Positions 25,317-58,700 of a stretch of 64,000 nt of DNA are shown one piece after another. A program made the translations under genes and the position numbers. The stretch is from Acidimicrobiales bacterium. GTDB taxonomy: Bacteria; Actinomycetota; Acidimicrobiia; Acidimicrobiales; SHLQ01. Where the stretch lies: NCBI GenBank assembly GCA_020629635.1, contig JAHDCX010000002.1, forward strand, positions 345,726 through 409,725, written 5' to 3'. The notes beneath the pieces were generated by a model. That model was given only the letters and a program-made list of their open reading frames with translations, was not told the origin of the DNA and did no database searches. Each line of letters starts with the position of its first letter. Position 1 is the stretch's first letter.

Positions 25317-25865
25317 TCAGAACGTCGTGGAGATGTAGACGACGACGGCGTCGATCTCCGTGGGCGACAGGCGGTTGCCAAACGCCGGCATCGCCCCGGG
25401 TCCGTTGATGATCGTCTCACGGATGACGTCGTCGCCGATCGCTGCGATTCCGACGAGCGAGGGTCCTCGTCCTCCTCCTCCGCTGGCTCCATGGCAGTTT
25501 GCGCAGTTCGCTGCGTAGAGGGCGCCACCATCAGGACTGTCCACGGTCGTCGTGGTGAGCGGAACAGTCGTCGTGGTCTCGGCTTCGGTGGTCGTGGTCG
25601 TTTCGGCCACGGTCGTCGTGGTCTCGGCCGCGGTGGTGGTGGTTTCGGCTTCGGTGGTGGTGGTTTCGGCCTCGGTGGTGGTCGTTTCGGCGGTGGTCGT
25701 CGTGGTGTCGGGCGCGTCGGTCGTGGCTACCGAAGACGTTGTCGTCACCTCCGCATCGGTCGACGACGTCGCCTCGGTGTCACCGCTTCCGCACGCCCAC
25801 AGGACGAGCGACAACGCAAGCACGCCCGCGAAACGGGAGATGGACAGGATTCGCTTGGGGTGCAT
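25317..25865 (-). CDS. Cytochrome c lipoprotein with Thr/Glu-repeat stalk
   Basis: A 182-residue exported protein. A lipobox-like LVLWAC (Cys25) ends the signal peptide. A long low-complexity stalk rich in TTTTEAE repeats (about 40-105) leads to a small class I cytochrome c domain. Heme attachment is at Cys121-Ala-Asn-Cys124-His125, and the likely axial Met is 159 in GAMPAFG. It would be anchored outside the membrane as an electron carrier. A -10-like TAGGGT (25900-25905 on the minus strand) and GGAGGA before the ATG support the start. No oxidase or dehydrogenase partner is adjacent. Confidence 0.9.
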   Translation of the reverse strand: MHPKRILSISRFAGVLALSLVLWACGSGDTEATSSTDAEVTTTSSVATTDAPDTTTTTAETTTTEAETTTTEAETTTTAAETTTTVAETTTTTEAETTTTVPLTTTTVDSPDGGALYAANCANCHGASGGGGRGPSLVGIAAIGDDVIRETIINGPGAMPAFGNRLSPTEIDAVVVYISTTF

Positions 25866-25926: not shown

Positions 25927-25978
25927 GCCTCGGCTACCCGATCCCGACTCGTGCCTCGGCTACCCGATCCCGACTCGT
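25927..25978. repeat. 26-bp tandem duplication at the 3' end of the FrhB-like gene
   Basis: Two identical 26-base units (25927-25952, 25953-25978) are followed by the first six bases of a third. The second unit contains the TAG stop of the FrhB-like gene, so the unit after the stop repeats its last codons. Confidence 0.85.
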
Positions 25979-27120
25979 GCCTCGTCGGTTGCCCAATCTG
26001 GCCAGCGTTTGCGGCTGTTCGTCGCCAAACGGTGCATCAACGCAACCGCCGCCGGATCGTCGTCTCCGGGGCGAGTCTCGATCACGCCATCCTCGATCAT
26101 CCCCGCGATCACCGCCCTGCCGATCTCGGTCCGGACGATCGTCAACGTCCAATCGGTGAGATTGCCGATGCCCCCGGTCGAGATGTCTGCGTGCTCAGCC
26201 GCGAAATCCGGACAGTGATTGCAGCCCGTCCGGGTCCAGGCGTGGCACTCCTTGAGATTGATCTCGTGGTAGTCGCCGTTCTTCATCCAGATCTGGAAGA
26301 CGCCCTTGATGTTCATCTTCGCGATGTCCTCTTTGCGAAGCCCGTACTTCACCCCGAACAACTCGTCGAACATCGAGTCGTCGAAGCTCTTCGAACACAA
26401 CAATCCGATGTTCAGCTTGAACGGCTTCGACACCTTGCCGACCCGGCGGTGCCACATGACCGGAGCGATCGACGTCTGGCAGGACATCCCCACCAGAGCG
26501 AGGCGATCGAGCCCGCGCTCCTTCGCCTCGTCGAACGCAATGGTGTTCGCTGAGTACGTGTACCGGCTCCCCGCGCCCCGCAAAACCTCTGCGGCATTGG
26601 TGGCCACCATCGGCACCGCCTTCCAGCCCGGGCTTCCGTCTGGGAGCGACTCGACGCCGCTCGTCAGTGCGGCATCGATCACGTCGTTCTCCAACAACCA
26701 GATCAACATCGCCGAGACCAACCCGCCATCCTGTCCGGTCTCGTAGACGTGATCATCGCTCGCACGGACCAACAAGATGTCCGAGTAGATGCCCGACATC
26801 TCCTCGTCGTCCCGGGTCCTCCCATGCAGATGCATGTCCGCCTCGGTTTCCCAATTCCGAAAACGAGGACAGGCACGCGTGCACGACGTACAGCCCTTCT
26901 CACCGTGGAGGCAGTTCTCGGCACCAAGCTCGTCTTCGAGGTGGAACGGCGTGTACGCACCCGGCTCATGCCGGTAGCCGATCACGTCATGTGGACACGC
27001 GATCACGCAGCCCGCGCACCCCGTGCACAGGCCGGACTGAATCACCTCGTCGTACAGCTCCTTCCACTGGAAGGTCCATCGAGGCTTCTTGGCAGCGGGC
27101 GCCGGAGCGGTGTCGGTCAT
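25960..27120 (-). CDS. Coenzyme F420 hydrogenase/dehydrogenase beta-subunit family protein (FrhB-like)
   Basis: A 386-residue protein. The N-terminus carries a ferredoxin-type [4Fe-4S] motif (Cys32, 35, 38, 42 in CTGCAGCVIACP). A second cysteine set (Cys70, 77, 80, 84) follows. The FrhB N- and C-terminal domains come next, with GGLVSAMLIWLL, LVGMSCQTSIAP and a late GCNHCPDFAAEHADISTGGIG. Family members use FAD and iron-sulfur clusters to move electrons between F420 or another deazaflavin/flavin carrier and a partner enzyme. Here the partner is unknown. The adjacent upstream gene on the same strand is a dehydrogenase-like protein, which may be its protein or substrate partner. Confidence 0.88.
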   Translation of the reverse strand: MTDTAPAPAAKKPRWTFQWKELYDEVIQSGLCTGCAGCVIACPHDVIGYRHEPGAYTPFHLEDELGAENCLHGEKGCTSCTRACPRFRNWETEADMHLHGRTRDDEEMSGIYSDILLVRASDDHVYETGQDGGLVSAMLIWLLENDVIDAALTSGVESLPDGSPGWKAVPMVATNAAEVLRGAGSRYTYSANTIAFDEAKERGLDRLALVGMSCQTSIAPVMWHRRVGKVSKPFKLNIGLLCSKSFDDSMFDELFGVKYGLRKEDIAKMNIKGVFQIWMKNGDYHEINLKECHAWTRTGCNHCPDFAAEHADISTGGIGNLTDWTLTIVRTEIGRAVIAGMIEDGVIETRPGDDDPAAVALMHRLATNSRKRWPDWATDEARVGIG

Positions 27121-28047: not shown

Positions 28048-28782
28048 ATGGACGTCATTGATCTGCTCATGGCTCATCGTTCGATTCGCAAGTTCAGCGA
28101 CGAGCCGATCGACGACGGGACGATCGAGCGGATCATCGCCGCAGGGTTTGCAGCGGCGACCTCGTCCAATCTTCAGGGCACGACCGTGATCCGGGTTCGA
28201 GATGCCGAGACTCGGCGGCGAATCGCCGAGCTCGCCGGCGGCCAAACCTACGTCGAGACAGCCGGGGCATTCTTCGTCTGGTGCGCCGATCTGCATCGCT
28301 CGGCAATGGCCTGCGAGATTGGCGGCGGCGCCTTCGAGCCGGGCGTGACCGAGCACTTCGTGATCGCCACGGTCGACTGTGCGCTCGCCGCGCAGAACGC
28401 CGTCGTCGCCGCCGAATCGCTCGGACTCGGAATCTGTTACATCGGGGGGATCCGCAATGACCCTGCACAGATGACCGAACTGCTCGAGCTCCCCGAGCAG
28501 GTGATGCCGCTCTTCGGGCTCTGCATCGGTCACCCGGCACAGGACCCGCAGCGAAAGCCACGCCTGCCGCTCACAATCACCCTCAAAGAAGAGCGCTACG
28601 ACGACTCCGGCGATCGTGTCGGGATCGGCGAGTACGACGAGACGATGCGCGCGTACTACCGAGAACGGACTGGCGGAAAGGTCGATCGAGCCTGGAGCAC
28701 CGACATGTCAGCACTGCTCGGCAAGGAAAGCCGCCCACACATGCGCGGCTATCTCGATTCTCAGGGGTTCCGCTTTCGATGA
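28048..28782 (+). CDS. NfsA-like NADPH-dependent nitroreductase/flavin reductase
   Basis: A 244-residue FMN-dependent oxidoreductase. LLMAHRSIRKFSDEPID at the N-terminus is the FMN-phosphate contact region of the nitroreductase fold. AAESLGLGICYIGGIRNDP and FGLCIGHPAQDPQRKPRLP are typical of the NfsA/FRP subgroup. It reduces quinones, nitro compounds or flavins with NADPH. No Shine-Dalgarno sequence is seen, matching a leaderless mRNA. It is the first gene of an operon whose second gene is the candidate selenoprotein, so it might supply or accept electrons in the same redox pathway. Confidence 0.9.
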   Translation: MDVIDLLMAHRSIRKFSDEPIDDGTIERIIAAGFAAATSSNLQGTTVIRVRDAETRRRIAELAGGQTYVETAGAFFVWCADLHRSAMACEIGGGAFEPGVTEHFVIATVDCALAAQNAVVAAESLGLGICYIGGIRNDPAQMTELLELPEQVMPLFGLCIGHPAQDPQRKPRLPLTITLKEERYDDSGDRVGIGEYDETMRAYYRERTGGKVDRAWSTDMSALLGKESRPHMRGYLDSQGFRFR

Positions 28783-29351
28783 CCGACGAACGAGCCTGGA
28801 TCCGCGTGATCGCGGAGGAGAACTGGCCGACCACCGATGGTCTCGCCGAGCGATTCGAGGACGTCATCGACCGGGACCACGGGCGGATCGACAACATCAT
28901 GGCGGTGCACTCGCTGAACCCGACCGGCCTGGGTGCACACGACGCCCTCTATCGATCGGCGATGACCGGTACGGCGTCGCTCCGCAAGGTTGAACGCGAA
29001 CTCCTCGCGTTCGTCGTCTCCCTGGAGAACCACTGCCACTATTGAGTCGTGCATCACGGGCGCGGTCTGCGCCGGCTCCTCAAGGACGATGCGCTCTTCG
29101 CGGCGATCCGGGACGACTGGCGCAGCGCACCCGTCGACGCCAAGCGACAGGCGATGCTCGGCTGGGCGGTCAAGCTCACTCACACGCCAGGCGAGATGAC
29201 CGAAACCGACCTCGTGAGCCTGCGGTCGGCAGGCTTCAGTGACCGCGACATTCTCGACATTGCCGAGGTGGTGGGCTACTACGCCTACGTGAACCGCCTG
29301 GCCGACGGACTCGGCGTACGAACCGAGGAGTGGATCCCCGATGACGAGTGA
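28779..29351 (+). CDS. AhpD-like peroxidase-related protein with in-frame TGA (candidate selenoprotein, CxxU)
   Basis: One continuous frame of 190 residues interrupted only by TGA at 29043-29045 (position 89). Upstream, DNIMAVHSLNPTGLGAHDALYRSAM and RELLAFVVSLENHCHY, and downstream, VVHHGRGLRRLLKDDAL, MLGWAVKLT, MTETDL and GFSDRDILDIAEVVGYYAYVNRLADGLGV, together form a complete AhpD-like/carboxymuconolactone-decarboxylase peroxidase-related enzyme. In that family the active site reads CxxCxxHHG. Here it reads Cys86-His-Tyr-[TGA]-Val-Val-His-His-Gly, so the TGA replaces exactly the second redox cysteine. Both halves are full length and neither start nor stop is damaged. Selenocysteine insertion is the favoured reading, and a nonsense mutation or sequencing error (TGC/TGT to TGA) is the alternative. 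The gene overlaps the genes on both sides. Confidence 0.75.
29059..29073 (+). promoter_or_regulatory. Candidate bacterial SECIS hairpin
   Basis: GGCGC (29059-29063) and GCGCC (29069-29073) form a perfect 5-bp stem with the loop GGTCT. Eighteen bases separate the TGA from the loop. Its first two bases are both G. Both features fit the known bacterial SECIS layout: a small loop with an early G, within about 16-37 bases of the UGA. The local DNA is GC-rich, so a chance stem is possible. Confidence 0.5.
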
Positions 29352-30108
29352 CTGGTCCGATTCGGTGGTGGCGGTCACCGGTGCAGCATCGGGCATGGGC
29401 CGTGCCACCGCGCTCGAATTCCTCCGGCTCGGCGCCACGGTCGCCGCGGTCGACCGCGACGCCTCCGGCTTGGACGGACTGCAACACGACGCCGCCACCA
29501 TTGGCGCCCAACGACTCTCGGTGCACGTCGGCGACGTCGCCGACGCCGAGTTCTGTCGGTCTGCGATCGATGGCGTCGCTGCGGAGCAGGGGCGGCTCGA
29601 CGTGCTCGTCAATGCAGCCGGGACGATTCACCGCGCCGACGCACTCGGCACCGAAGACGACGATTGGCGACGCGTCCTGTCGGTGAACGTCGACGGGGTC
29701 TTCTTTCTGAGTCGGGCCGCAATCCCTCATCTGCGACATACGGGCGGCTGCATCGTGAACTTCGGGTCGATCTGGGGTGGGGTCGCGGCGGCTGGGGTCA
29801 CCGCGTACTGCGTGTCGAAAGGTGCCGTCCACCAATTGACGAAGGCCATGGCGCTCGACCACATCGAAGACGGGATCCGGATCAACGCGGTTGCTCCGGG
29901 TGAGGTCAACACGCCGATGCTCGCGAGCCAACGCGAGTCGGTACCGACCGCCGCCGACCTCCAAGCTCTCGCCGATGCGACGATCCCGATGAAGCGACTG
30001 GCCGAACCGATCGAAGTCGCAAGGGTCGTGGTGTTTCTCGCCTCCGACGCCGCCAGCTACATGACCGGCGAGATCGTGCACGTCGACGGTGGGTACACCG
30101 CCCGATGA
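29341..30108 (+). CDS. SDR-family oxidoreductase
   Basis: A 255-residue classical short-chain dehydrogenase. The cofactor loop is TGAASGMGRA (about 12-21), and NAAG is at about 91-94. The catalytic Ser is in NFGSIWGG, with Tyr and Lys in YCVSK. An Asp after strand 2 (AAVDRDASG) suggests NAD(H). The ATG at 29341 overlaps the candidate selenoprotein's stop by 11 bases. The substrate is unknown, and the family acts on alcohols, sugars or hydroxyacyl groups. Confidence 0.9.
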   Translation: MTSDWSDSVVAVTGAASGMGRATALEFLRLGATVAAVDRDASGLDGLQHDAATIGAQRLSVHVGDVADAEFCRSAIDGVAAEQGRLDVLVNAAGTIHRADALGTEDDDWRRVLSVNVDGVFFLSRAAIPHLRHTGGCIVNFGSIWGGVAAAGVTAYCVSKGAVHQLTKAMALDHIEDGIRINAVAPGEVNTPMLASQRESVPTAADLQALADATIPMKRLAEPIEVARVVVFLASDAASYMTGEIVHVDGGYTAR

Positions 30109-31013
30109 GCGATGATGCCGGTCCGAGCCCGGAAGCACTCGCCGAGCTGACCGATGGGTCCCCCGATGATGAGCGGTACTCCCCAGAGCAGCTGATCGAA
30201 CGTCGCCAAGCGACCAACAGGGCTTGGGTCGCCGAGGCGAGCGCCGCAATCGATCGCCACCAGCTGGAGCTCACCGACGACGTGGTCGGCGGTGTCCCGT
30301 GCCTTCGGGTCCGCTCGCAGTTGGCACAGGCGACCGCTGACCGTCTGATGTGGTTCTTCGGTGGCGGCTTCGTCTGGGGCGAGCCGCGAAGCGAGCTGCA
30401 GATCGTCGGTCCGATCGCCGAACGAACCGGCGCAGAAGTCGTTCTTCCGTCCTACCGCCTCGCCCCCGAAGACCCCTGGCCCGCAGCCACGATCGACGCC
30501 TGGTCGGCATGGGAAGGCCTCGCCGACGACGGGCGTCACGGCCGCCTGTGGCTTGGCGGTGAGTCCGCCGGAGGGAACTTGGCGCTCGGCGTCGCCCAAC
30601 GGGCACGCCGCGAGGGGCGGCGGCCTGATCGGCTGGCGCTCCTGTCACCCGCCGTCGACCTTCGAACGTCGCGGAGTGGGTTCGGGCCCAGTTTGCGCAC
30701 CGACCCGACGCTCTCCTATTCGAGATTTCTCGACATCGACGCTGCGTACGTCGCTGGAAGCGATGCAACCGATCCGACCGTGTCGCCTCTGCTCGGAGAC
30801 ATGGACGCCCTCCCGCCCACGATCATCACGACCGGCTCCAACGACCTTCTCCTCGGCGGGTGCCTCCGTCTCGCCCGAAAGCTGCGCCAGGCCGACGTAC
30901 GAGTCGAATGCATGGTCTGGGATCGACTCTGGCACGTGTTCGAGTTCGACTCGCACCTGCCCGAAGCGGTGGAGTCGCTTCGCGAAGTCGCCGACTTTCT
31001 CCGCGAGACGTAG
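30105..31013 (+). CDS. Alpha/beta hydrolase fold-3 protein (HSL-like) with altered oxyanion motif
   Basis: A 302-residue hydrolase of the hormone-sensitive-lipase group. The nucleophile elbow GGESAGGNLAL holds the catalytic Ser. YRLAPEDPWPAA is the usual conserved block. GSNDLLLGG and WHVFEF are in the expected places for Asp and His. The oxyanion motif normally reads HGGG but here is FFGGGF, so the His is replaced by Phe. It starts in an ATGA overlap with the SDR gene. Ester substrate unknown. Confidence 0.85.
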   Translation: MSDDAGPSPEALAELTDGSPDDERYSPEQLIERRQATNRAWVAEASAAIDRHQLELTDDVVGGVPCLRVRSQLAQATADRLMWFFGGGFVWGEPRSELQIVGPIAERTGAEVVLPSYRLAPEDPWPAATIDAWSAWEGLADDGRHGRLWLGGESAGGNLALGVAQRARREGRRPDRLALLSPAVDLRTSRSGFGPSLRTDPTLSYSRFLDIDAAYVAGSDATDPTVSPLLGDMDALPPTIITTGSNDLLLGGCLRLARKLRQADVRVECMVWDRLWHVFEFDSHLPEAVESLREVADFLRET

Positions 31014-31060
31014 TGTTCGCGACACCGGTGCTCGTTGGCCGGCGTGAGGAGCAAACTTTC

Positions 31061-31765
31061 ATGAAGATCGAGAACAGCTTCACCGTGGATGCACCCATCG
31101 ACGAGGCGTGGCACCTGCTCACCGACATCCCGGAGATCGCTCCATGTCTTCCCGGTGCCAAGCTGACCGACGAGACCGACGGTGTGTACTCGGGTGGCGT
31201 GAAGGTGAAGGTTGGGCCGGTCACGGCCGAGTACAAGGGCTCGGCGGAGTTCGTGGAGAAGGACGAAGACGCCCGTCGAGCGGTCATCACCGGAAAGGGT
31301 CGTGACACCCGAGGTGCCGGCAATGCTCAGGCGTTGATCACCGCACAGATGGAAGCCGTGGGCGACCAGACCCGGGTCGACATCATCACGGACCTCAAGG
31401 TGTCCGGAAAGGTTGCCCAGTTCGGGCGAGGCGTGATGCAGGACGTCTCCGAGAAGCTGCTCGGACAATTTGCCGAGTGTCTCGAAAACAAGATCGCCGA
31501 ACCCGCGGCCGTCGAGGCCATCGCCGAGGCGAGCGCTGAAGCCGCAACTCCGGAGCACGAGGAGATTGCGGTGCCGGCGGCGGAGTCTGAGGTTGCCGAT
31601 GACGGGCCGACACCCGCCGTCGACGCTGCTGCATCAACCGATGACGACGATGCGCTCGACCTGCTCGACGTGGCAGGTGACGCGGTCTTCAAAAGATTCC
31701 TCCCGATCGTCGTGGCGCTGGTGGTCGTGCTCGTGGTCGTCATCGTGCTGGTCGCCACGGCCTAG
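31061..31765 (+). CDS. CoxG/SRPBCC-family protein with C-terminal membrane anchor
   Basis: A 234-residue protein. Residues 1-150 form a START-like domain of the CoxG (carbon monoxide dehydrogenase subunit G) family: MKIENSFTVDAPIDEAWHLLTDI at the start and GRGVMQDVSEKLLGQFAECLE at the end. An Ala/Glu/Asp-rich linker follows, then one strong membrane helix at the C-terminus (about 213-232). CoxG proteins help recruit molybdenum hydroxylases to the membrane, but none is encoded nearby. GAGGAG lies nine bases before the ATG. The stop codon overlaps that of the convergent HD-GYP gene (CTAG). Confidence 0.85.
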   Translation: MKIENSFTVDAPIDEAWHLLTDIPEIAPCLPGAKLTDETDGVYSGGVKVKVGPVTAEYKGSAEFVEKDEDARRAVITGKGRDTRGAGNAQALITAQMEAVGDQTRVDIITDLKVSGKVAQFGRGVMQDVSEKLLGQFAECLENKIAEPAAVEAIAEASAEAATPEHEEIAVPAAESEVADDGPTPAVDAAASTDDDDALDLLDVAGDAVFKRFLPIVVALVVVLVVVIVLVATA

Positions 31766-33741: not shown

Positions 33742-33774
33742 GAGCTGCGAATGACCGGTCAGTGCCGTACGGCC

Positions 33775-33816
33775 TAGGGTGCCGAAATGACGATCTCCGA
33801 AGTGTTTCGTCCGTGA
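33775..33816 (+). promoter_or_regulatory. -10 element and leaderless nine-codon ORF before the CoA-transferase
   Basis: TAGGGT (33775-33780) lies six bases before ATG 33787. That ATG opens MTISEVFRP and stops at TGA 33814-33816, which overlaps the GTG start of the CoA-transferase at 33813. Translation of the mini-ORF would couple to the main gene. Confidence 0.35.
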
Positions 33817-35012
33817 TCCCGCCGCTCGACGGGCTCCAGGTGATCGAAGGGTCCGCCTTCGTGGCTGCGCCGAGTGGCGGTATGACGCTCGCCCAGCTGG
33901 GTGCCGACGTGATCCGCTTCGATCAGATCGGCGGCGGGCTCGACCATGGCCGGTGGCCGCTCACCGAGGACGGTGCCTCGCTGTACTGGGCGGGCCTGAA
34001 CAAGAACAAACGATCCTTGGCGATCGATCTGCGGGATGCGGAGATCCAGGAGCTGTTGTCCGCATTGATCGCGAAGGCGGGAACGTTCCTCACCAACTTT
34101 CCGGCTCGAGGCTGGATGTCGTGGGAGTCGCTGGTCGCCCAGCGGCCGGACCTCGTCATGTTGGCAATCACCGGAAACCGGGACGGAACGACCGCGCTGG
34201 ACTACACCGTCAATGCGGCCATCGGATACCCGGCGGTGACCGGACCGGTCGATCACCCCGACCCCGTGAACCACGTCTTTGCCGCGTGGGACGTCATTTG
34301 TGGGCAGACCGCGGCGCTCGGGATCCTGGCCGCCGATCGGCATCGCCTTCGGACCGGCCACGGGGCCAACATGACCCTGGCGTTGTTCGACGTCGCACTC
34401 GCAGCCGTCGCAGCGCTGGGCCACGTCGCAGAGGCACAGAAACTCGGTACCGAGCGCGAACGGTACGGAAACGACCTGTACGGCGCCTTTGGTGCCATGT
34501 TCGGTACCAGCGACGGGCATCACGTCTACGCCGTTGCGATCAGCGGCCGCCAGTGGCGGTCGCTCGTCGACGCGTGTGATGCGTCGACGGCAATCGAGGC
34601 ACTCGCCAAGCGAACCGGACTCGACTTTGCGGTCGAAGGGGATCGCTTCGCTGCCCGAAGCGAGATCGCGGAGGTGCTCGGATCGTGGATCGCCGCCCGG
34701 TCGCTGTCGACGGTGCGTGAGCGTTTCGACCAGCTCGGCGTGTGTTGGGGCCCATACCAGAGCTTTTCCGAGCTCGTCGAGAACGACCCTCGATGCTCGC
34801 TCGACAACGCGATGTTCCGCGCCGTCGACCAACCCGGAATCGGTGAGTATCTGACTCCCGGCTCGCCGATCGCCTTCGACGGAGCGCTCTGCGTCGAGCC
34901 GTCGCCAGCCCCCCGACTCGGTCAACACTCCGAGGAGATCCTCGGCGAACTCGGCCTGTCGACGGTCGAGATCGGTCGGCTCGTCGACGGCGGGTCGGTC
35001 GCCGTCGGGTGA
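33813..35012 (+). CDS. CaiB/BaiF (family III) CoA-transferase or racemase
   Basis: A 399-residue protein of the family III CoA-transferase fold. PPLDGLQVIEGSAFVAAPSGGMTLAQLGADVIRFD at the N-terminus, NKRSLAIDLRD and a mid-protein Asp (TALDYTVNAAIG) at the usual nucleophile position are characteristic. Members move CoA between carboxylic acids or racemise 2-methylacyl-CoAs. The GTG at 33813 is used because the upstream in-frame GTG (33762) lies before the likely promoter hexamer. No dedicated acid pathway is adjacent. Confidence 0.85.
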   Translation: MIPPLDGLQVIEGSAFVAAPSGGMTLAQLGADVIRFDQIGGGLDHGRWPLTEDGASLYWAGLNKNKRSLAIDLRDAEIQELLSALIAKAGTFLTNFPARGWMSWESLVAQRPDLVMLAITGNRDGTTALDYTVNAAIGYPAVTGPVDHPDPVNHVFAAWDVICGQTAALGILAADRHRLRTGHGANMTLALFDVALAAVAALGHVAEAQKLGTERERYGNDLYGAFGAMFGTSDGHHVYAVAISGRQWRSLVDACDASTAIEALAKRTGLDFAVEGDRFAARSEIAEVLGSWIAARSLSTVRERFDQLGVCWGPYQSFSELVENDPRCSLDNAMFRAVDQPGIGEYLTPGSPIAFDGALCVEPSPAPRLGQHSEEILGELGLSTVEIGRLVDGGSVAVG

Positions 35013-55730: not shown

Positions 55731-58700
55731 ATGGACGCTCCACCATCTCTCGCCGACGCTGCCGTCGATCTCGTTGCCGACTGGGTTCGCCGATCCGAGC
55801 AGTCGGCGACACGAGCGGAACGCCAGGCGGCCGACCGGCTCGAAGGTGTGGTCACCGACGAGGAGTCCGTCGGCTTCGTCATGGCCTTCGTCGACCGAGT
55901 GGTTCGCCCCGACGACGATCGGGTCGCGGCCGACCAGCTGACCTCAGTCGTGTCGACCCGTAGCCGGCCAGCCTTCCTCGGCCGGATCGATGCGGCGCTG
56001 CTCGGCGCAGGACGTCACCTCGCGCCCCACATCCCGGGTGTGGTCATGCCGCTCGCCAGGAGGCGCATGCGACAGATCGTTGGTCACCTCGTGGCACCTG
56101 CCGAGCCAGACCAGCTCGCTGCGCACCTCGCCGCCACACGCGCCGACGGGTTCGCCCTCAACGTCAACCTGCTCGGCGAAGCCGTACTCGGCGAACGCGA
56201 AGCCGAACGCCGCCTCGACGAACTCCTCGCCGTCGTCGATCAACCCGACGTCGACTACGTGTCGGTCAAGGTGTCAGCCGTGGCATCACAGCTCAACCAC
56301 TGGGCCCACGATGACAGCCTCCGGCGAGTCACCGAACGCCTCGCCGTTCTGTTCGACCACGCAGCGGCCGCCGACCCCGTGACGTTCATCAACGTCGACA
56401 TGGAGGAGTACCACGATCTCGACCTGACGCTCGACGCCTTCATGTCCGTGCTCGGAACCGACGAGCGACGCCACATGGATGCCGGGGTCGTGTTGCAGGC
56501 GTACCTCCCCGACGCCCTGCGTGCCCTGCAACGCCTCACCGAATGGGCGAACGAGCGTGCCGCCGCCGGTGGCGGAACGATCAAGGTTCGCCTGGTCAAG
56601 GGAGCCAACCTTGCGATGGAACGAGTCGACGCCGCCATGCACGGATGGGAACAGGCGCCGTACGAGACGAAGGTTGATGTCGACGCCAACTACAAGCGGT
56701 GCGTCGACTGGTTGCTCCACGACGATCGCATGCGCGGAATCCGTCTCGGTCTCGCCAGCCACAACCTCTTCGACGTCGCCTGGACCCACCTCCTGGCCGC
56801 CGAACGACACGTCGCTGACCGCGTGCAGTTCGAGATGCTGCAGGGCATGGCCCCAGCGCAGGCGCGGGTGCTGGCCTGCGAAACCGACCCGGCCAACCCG
56901 CTCCTTCTCTACACCCCGGCCGTGCGTTCGGATGACTTCGATGTGGCGATCAGCTACCTGTTCCGCCGACTCGAGGAGAACGCTGCGGATGAGAATTTCC
57001 TTCGGCATGTGTTCGACCTCTCGCCTGGCAGCGACGGATTCGTGAGCCAAGAAGCGGCGTTCCGGGCCTCGCTCGACCGAATGGACTCGGCGTCGATCGG
57101 TCGGCGTCGCACACAGGACCGAACGCTCGCACCGATCCCGGCGTATGTGATCGGCGAGCCCTTCGTGAACGAGCCCGAGACCGACCCGACCGGACCCGGG
57201 AATCAGGAATGGATCGCGAAGGTCGGCGCCAGCGTGCCCGACCCCGTCCACGCCCCGATCACCACCGCCATCGCCGACATCGATCGGATCTACCAACGCG
57301 CCCGCGCCGCGGCGGGCCTTTGGGCTACCTCGGACCTCACCGAACGACAGCGGCTTCTGCACCGCGTTGGCGACGAGCTCGCCCGACGCCGCGGTGAGCT
57401 CATTACCGCCATGCTCCACGAGGGGCACAAGACCTTTGCCCAAGCCGACAACGAGGTGTGCGAAGCGATCGACTTCGCCCGCTGGTACGGCGACCGAGCG
57501 ATCGAACTCGACCGCGACGGCCTGGCGTTCGCTCCGCTGGGCGTGATCGCCGTCGTCCCACCCTGGAACTTCCCGGTCGCGATCCCGGCTGGAGGCGTGC
57601 TCGCCGCCTTGGCTGCTGGCAACGCCGTCGTGTTCAAGCCCGCACCCGAGACGCCGCGCTGTGCCGAGATCGTCGCCGAAGCGTGCTGGGCGGCCGGAGT
57701 GGACAGAGAGGTGCTCCAGTTCGTCCGCACGCCCGACGACGAAATCGGCCGGCATCTCGTCACGAACGCGGACGCCGTGATCCTGACCGGAGCGAGCGAA
57801 ACGGCAGACCTCTTCCGGTCGTGGCGGCCCGACCTGCCGGTGTTCGCCGAGACCTCAGGCAAGAACGCGCTCATCATCACCCCCAACGCCGACGTCGACC
57901 TCGCCGTGGCCGACCTGGTCGCCAGCGCCTTCGGGCACAGCGGTCAGAAGTGCTCGGCGGCCAGCATTGCCGTGCTCGTTGGAGGAGTTGGGGCGAGCGA
58001 ACGCTTCGTCCGACAGTTGGTCGATGCCGTCGAGTCGATCGAGCTCGGCGCGTCACACGACATCGAGACGAACATGGGACCGCTGATCGGACCGGCGAAC
58101 CGGCGTCTCGAGCGAGCATTCACCGAGCTGGATCCCGGAGAGAGCTGGCTGGTCGAGCCACGACACATCGAGGGCAACCTGTGGAGCCCCGGCGTGCGCG
58201 ACGGCGTGGCTCCCGGATCGTGGTTCCATCGCACCGAGTGCTTCGGACCGGTGCTTGGGCTGATCCACGTCGAGACACTCGACGAGGCCATCGAGTTGGT
58301 GAACGGCGGCGACTTCGGCCTCACATCGGGCATCCACACCCTCGACCCGATCGAGATCGAGCAATGGACCGACACGATCGAGGTCGGCAACGGCTACGTC
58401 AACCGCCCGATCACCGGCGCCATTGTGCAGCGCCAGCCCTTCGGTGGTTGGAAACGATCGTCGATCGGGCCTGGGGCCAAGGCGGGCGGACTCAACTACG
58501 TGGCGCAACTGGGCACGTGGACCTCGACCGATGACGATCGGGCCCACGACTTCGATCACCAGTGGCGGACCCACTTCGCCGTCGAGCACGACCCCACCGG
58601 ACTGTTCTGCGAATCGAACGTCTTCCGCTACCGCCCGCTCGAGAGCGTTGGCGTGTGGTTCGGGGCGGATGCCACCGACCACGAGCGGGATCTCGTCGAG

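Follow-up and report, generated by a model that had tools for sequence, protein, structure and literature searches.

Is a stop codon in the middle of a redox enzyme gene a defect, or is it a codon for selenocysteine (Sec)? The question is raised by an AhpD-like gene in the window analysed here, a 64,000-nucleotide stretch of an Acidimicrobiales genome (4.45 Mb in 37 contigs, 96.5% complete). When read through its single internal TGA (29043-29045, codon 89), the frame at 28779-29351 gives 190 residues and ends at a second TGA (29349-29351). The internal codon is flanked by Cys-His-Tyr and Val-Val-His-His-Gly and stands in place of the second redox cysteine, giving the site C86-H-Y-U89-xx-H-H and a CxxUxxHHG motif. 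The AhpD-like protein scored 133.2 bits against the NCBIfam model TIGR01926 "peroxidase-related enzyme" (curated cut-off 81.8) and also matched the Pfam CMD family (PF02627). In the initial annotation the interrupted gene was proposed as a candidate CxxU selenoprotein; its coordinates, C86, the motif and the overlaps with both neighbours were found to be correct on re-reading the frame, and the computational tests it had called for, a search for the Sec genes and a comparison of relatives, were all run and all came out in its favour. We consider it very probable (about 0.94), judging from the sequence comparisons described below, that the gene encodes an AhpD-family selenoprotein in which UGA 29043-29045 is read as Sec with the guidance of a SECIS element. 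The features discussed are collected in Table 1.

Table 1. Features of the AhpD-like locus and its surroundings (window positions, except for selD)
Feature	Position	Strand	Basis
NfsA-type oxygen-insensitive NADPH nitroreductase	28048..28782	+	NF008033 278 bits, cut-off 223; Pfam PF00881
Predicted AhpD-like (TIGR01926) selenoprotein gene	28779..29351	+	190 aa, Sec at codon 89; family score, 91-orthologue alignment
Glu74 codon, predicted proton-relay Glu	28998..29000	+	invariant in orthologue alignment; relay from PMC3141380
Cys86 codon, first residue of CxxU pair	29034..29036	+	invariant in orthologue alignments
TGA predicted to be read as selenocysteine (U89 of CHYU)	29043..29045	+	TGA in 91/91 orthologues; Sec genes in genome
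Candidate bacterial SECIS hairpin	29059..29074	+	GGCGC stem, GGTCT loop 29064-29068, GCGCC-type 3' arm
SDR-family oxidoreductase	29341..30108	+	PF13561/PF00106; synteny within genus
Hormone-sensitive-lipase-like alpha/beta hydrolase	30105..31013	+	PF07859; GTSAG_HSLs 156 bits, under its cut-off
CoxG-like (SRPBCC) protein, start approximate	31010..31765	+	PF06240 80.9 bits
selD, itself a selenoprotein gene	L018:1501-2415 = contig C13:133404-134318	-	TGA in HGAG-U-GCK

A bacterial selenoprotein requires selA, selB, selC and selD, and all four were found in the source genome, where the initial annotation had suggested looking for them. The tRNA-Sec gene scored 65.1 bits, over its cut-off, and was assigned the anticodon tca (UCA) by ARAGORN; selA adjoins selB on one contig, and selD carries a TGA of its own in the HGAG-U-GCK active site, which we take to be the known Sec form of SelD. 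With a complete Sec system in the genome, the objection that selA, selB or selC might be absent is removed. Among 297 genomes of the same order, 180 were SelA-positive over cut-off, and every genome of this sample that carries a TGA-bearing orthologue was also SelA-positive when the two lists were compared by eye, a co-occurrence that is given without a probability since the sampled genomes are related and not independent.

A search of the 297 genomes returned orthologues at 57-73% identity, every one of which has the internal TGA, and in 30 of 30 aligned order-level orthologues it occupies the identical codon, within a conserved block of the form N-x-C-H-Y-U-x-x-H-H-[RG]-R-G-L-R. The strict CHY-codon-xx-HH pattern with TGA was read at 109 of 110 loci; the remaining locus (L093) reads CEY-stop-VTHH, and in the larger orthologue set its stop is TGA as well. 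This larger set comprised 91 non-redundant orthologues from Acidimicrobiales and other Actinomycetota lineages, four of them lying outside the order. All 91 have TGA as codon 89, and TGC or TGT occurs in none, so within this set no recent TGA/TGC exchange was seen, and mean pairwise identity is 67% both before and after the TGA. Frameshifts or unrelated stop codons in relatives had been named as observations that would speak against a selenoprotein; none was seen among the orthologues examined.

Like the codon itself, the sequence that follows it is under constraint. Directly 3' of the TGA, a short hairpin with an apical GGTCT loop is found in all orthologues, the first base of the loop lying 18 nt after the TGA. 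This spacing is within the usual range of bacterial SECIS elements, and the loop resembles that of the E. coli fdhF SECIS. The loop is invariant in 91/91 orthologues and synonymous sites within it are frozen, G96 being GGT and L97 being CTG in 91/91. Among conserved columns with four- or six-fold degeneracy, R95, G96, L97 and R98 are the four of lowest entropy in the 91 orthologues; elsewhere, conserved Gly and Leu columns draw on several codons, with entropies of 1.5-2.3 bits. In the stem, the pair formed by positions 18 and 30, counted from the T of the TGA, is G-C in 72 orthologues, G-T in 12, A-T in 5, C-G in 1 and A-C in 1, and thus changes on both sides; the outer stem pairs are weaker (paired in 82/91 and 70/91). 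When the window sequence was folded alone, the stability of the hairpin did not exceed that of shuffled sequences (z 0.06). A hairpin just 3' of the UGA with a G in its apical loop is therefore present, but its single-sequence stability is unexceptional and the case for a SECIS rests on conservation. On the basis of the frozen synonymous sites and the compensatory pair changes, the GGTCT hairpin is a candidate bacterial SECIS element. When the window was scanned for another TGA followed by a GGTCT hairpin, only one weak match was obtained beyond the AhpD-like gene, at 57205 on the minus strand, which has an upstream frame of 29 codons and is probably due to chance.

At larger distances, both Sec and Cys forms of this position were seen. 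In a phylum search of 396 genomes, further TGA-bearing AhpD clades were found with the sites CHYU, CHCU and CLFU, as well as one AHYU, and Cys clades (CLYC) sharing the column with the Sec forms were found only in more distant clades. The source genome itself has a second TIGR01926-like gene (C33:182585-183046) of the Cys form (CLYC). The exchange that had been suggested as a check takes the shape of TGA in all close orthologues and, in distant homologues, of Cys at that column. In a tree of 51 rows, all sampled Cys sequences form one clade (95/80) and the Sec label needs three changes; in this tree, taken without a root, they may run in either direction between Sec and Cys. The CLFU forms (L144 and L145, of G458 and G518) branch beside the Cys clade and apart from the other Sec forms, which could reflect a separate gain of Sec or a retained ancestral state.

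Several more unusual homologues were encountered. A divergent homologue that carries TGA, the AHYU form (L138; match 25413-25844 of G503:C142), has Ala in place of the first Cys, and Sec would act there without a cysteine partner. In another homologue (L161; G206:C39:103190-103732), the Sec position is taken by Ala (CDYA). Family f17 has a paralogue in tandem with its Sec-AhpD gene (L159:246-695 and L160:835-1275) in which the active site is lost: it reads SGYW, the codon in the Sec column being TGG. This paralogue may be decaying, or may serve as an inactive partner. In the tree it falls within the Sec clade, on a long branch, a position consistent with a former TGA at that codon.

How else might the internal TGA be explained? 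Since a lone TGA breaks an otherwise intact frame, an ordinary CxxC AhpD gene hit by a nonsense mutation, or a sequencing error, could be suspected. The identical TGA in all 91 non-redundant orthologues, drawn from independent assemblies, together with a downstream half as conserved as the upstream half and synonymous constraint past the TGA, cannot be explained by a pseudogene or an error; this reading was already refuted by the orthologue data, and we regard it as exceedingly improbable. Only slightly less remote is a split enzyme, made of an 88-residue peptide ending at the TGA and a 100-residue peptide restarting at GTG 29049, two codons past the TGA, where an open reading frame (29049-29351) does exist. 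Only about half of the orthologues have Val as codon 91, which means that the restart is not kept, and a break after CHY would leave the enzyme with no second redox residue and the SECIS-like constraint without an explanation. An equally slight chance is given to a near-cognate tRNA reading through the TGA, or to its reassignment to another amino acid such as Trp. The degenerate tandem paralogue, in one lineage, does have TGG (Trp) at the same column; however, TGA is an ordinary terminator in this genome, ending among others the AhpD-like gene and the nitroreductase, a dedicated tRNA-Sec is present with SelA, SelB and SelD, and the Cys homologues at the column and the SECIS loop point to Sec.

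If the codon is read as Sec, what might the enzyme do? An AlphaFold model of the AhpD-like protein (mean pLDDT 85.5) adopts an AhpD-like fold, its best matches in the PDB being 2pfx, 3c1l (Mlr4105) and 6k40 (D. radiodurans AhpD), with TM of about 0.74-0.80, which are also the nearest by sequence. These three structures, 2oyo and 2prr share fold, family and the CxxC/U-xxxH block with the window protein, but are CxxC where it is CxxU (the first three as judged from alignments). The proton relay reported for AhpD proteins consists of Glu, Cys, His/Tyr, Cys and His (PMC3141380) and maps to E74, C86, Y88, U89 and H93, all of which are invariant in the orthologues. Glu74 lies 12 residues before C86, as does Glu118 in the AhpD of M. 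tuberculosis, in which the relay residues (E, C, aromatic/His, C/U, H) have equivalent spacing (PMC3141380), although that protein differs in chain topology, has about 10% identity to the window protein, uses Cys and not Sec, and acts as an adaptor for AhpC.

It can be proposed that SelB and Sec-tRNA(UCA) decode the in-frame UGA 29043-29045 as selenocysteine, that the hairpin with its GGUCU loop, starting 18 nt past the UGA, guides the insertion, and that the terminal TGA stops translation. The active site would then be an AhpD proton relay with Sec in place of the second cysteine (E74, C86, Y88, U89, H93). Going by AhpD, the enzyme most probably acts on hydroperoxides, or on some other oxidised compound, reducing them via a C86-U89 selenenylsulfide, which a cellular thiol or dithiol would then reduce. 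As the relay residues are kept and the model is closest to peroxidase-related structures, a CxxU selenol/thiol peroxidase or oxidoreductase is the likeliest function, and such an activity, assigned by homology, is somewhat favoured. AhpD-fold proteins can carry out other reactions, for example that of the debrominase Bmp8, which was a weak structural match to the model; a literature search on the debrominase returned BMP8 cytokine papers only.

Selenoproteins of this kind have been predicted before, as the initial annotation noted. AhpD-like selenoproteins of COG2128 were predicted first in sequence data of the Sargasso Sea (27 sequences; Zhang et al. 2005, PMC1088965) and then, as "AhpD-like 1", in the GOS survey (299 sequences; PMC2398784), and in Table 1 of a 2026 review the entry "AhpD-like protein, TIGR01926, CxxU" stands with the selenoprotein families predicted at high confidence (PMC13188914). 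The TIGR01926 model, over its cut-off here, and Sec at the second redox position are common to these proteins and the window gene, and no difference in kind is known. The gene therefore belongs to an already predicted family and is not a new one. Two other AhpD-domain selenoproteins share CxxU with it: the AhpD_rel_CFYUT (seleno)protein NF041238, a separate family against which the window protein scored 32.8 bits (cut-off 175), and the distant AhpD homologue NF041047, which was absent from the family matches of the AhpD-like protein. A literature search for selenoproteins of Acidimicrobiia found nothing relevant, which is weak evidence since most subscription papers lay outside it.

The gene lies in an operon. 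The nitroreductase ends 4 nt inside it (28782), and the SDR gene begins 11 nt before its end (29341). Further downstream, the CoxG-like ORF 30860-31765 has its listed GTG start (30860) within the hydrolase gene; as the CoxG domain begins at residue 73, the true start is probably after about 31010. The order nitroreductase-AhpD-SDR was found at 7 of 80 loci (L049-L054, L060), most of which also have a divergent FrhB-like gene and some an esterase or CoxG gene. At least one member of the genus (G171) has the nitroreductase and CoxG genes with no AhpD gene between them. In the rest of the order the Sec gene is flanked by different genes; apart from generic SDRs and what may be shadow frames, clustering of neighbour ORFs revealed no gene clearly conserved beside it order-wide. 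The linkage to nitroreductase, SDR, hydrolase and CoxG-like genes, noticed at the outset, is thus real, and the operon is a lineage-specific setting of one genus-level group. Two further genes were observed in the window. An FrhB/FdhB-like F420 oxidoreductase beta subunit with a ferredoxin domain (25960-27120, minus strand) is divergent from the operon and kept with it in the genus, and a CoA-transferase family III gene (33762-35012, plus strand) is closest to 2-methylfumaryl-CoA (mesaconyl-CoA) isomerase, although its 484 bits fall short of the cut-off (725).

This setting could suggest that Sec is real but serves reductive detoxification, such as dehalogenation or nitro/quinone reduction with the NfsA-type nitroreductase, and not peroxide reduction. 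The conservation of the operon with the NfsA nitroreductase, SDR and HSL-type esterase in the genus, and the debrominase Bmp8 among the structural neighbours, are in line with this; yet the match to Bmp8 is distant (14-16% identity), and the Sec-AhpD gene occurs in other contexts outside the genus, so that its neighbours cannot define its core chemistry. We find such a role unlikely, and it is a little more doubtful still that the Sec-AhpD protein, nitroreductase, SDR and esterase form a translationally coupled pathway of reductive xenobiotic detoxification. That the enzyme serves detoxification during catabolism within this operon is a guess. If the pathway did exist, the operon would contain a selenium-dependent step not described for the TIGR01926 AhpD-like family.

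What is new here is the distribution in Actinomycetota, the SECIS evidence and the genus-restricted operon; the available parts of the three sources cited above (PMC1088965, PMC2398784, PMC13188914) make no mention of the NfsA/SDR/esterase setting in Acidimicrobiales. Standard annotation would cut the gene in two or label it a pseudogene. Sec machinery is common in Acidimicrobiales and their kin (180/297 with SelA over cut-off), which are mostly known from uncultured genomes, and one of its uses would be an AhpD-like redox enzyme in which Sec has been kept across several Actinomycetota lineages. Some 90 sequences, together with an operon and a strong SECIS motif, offer material for asking what CxxU buys over CxxC.
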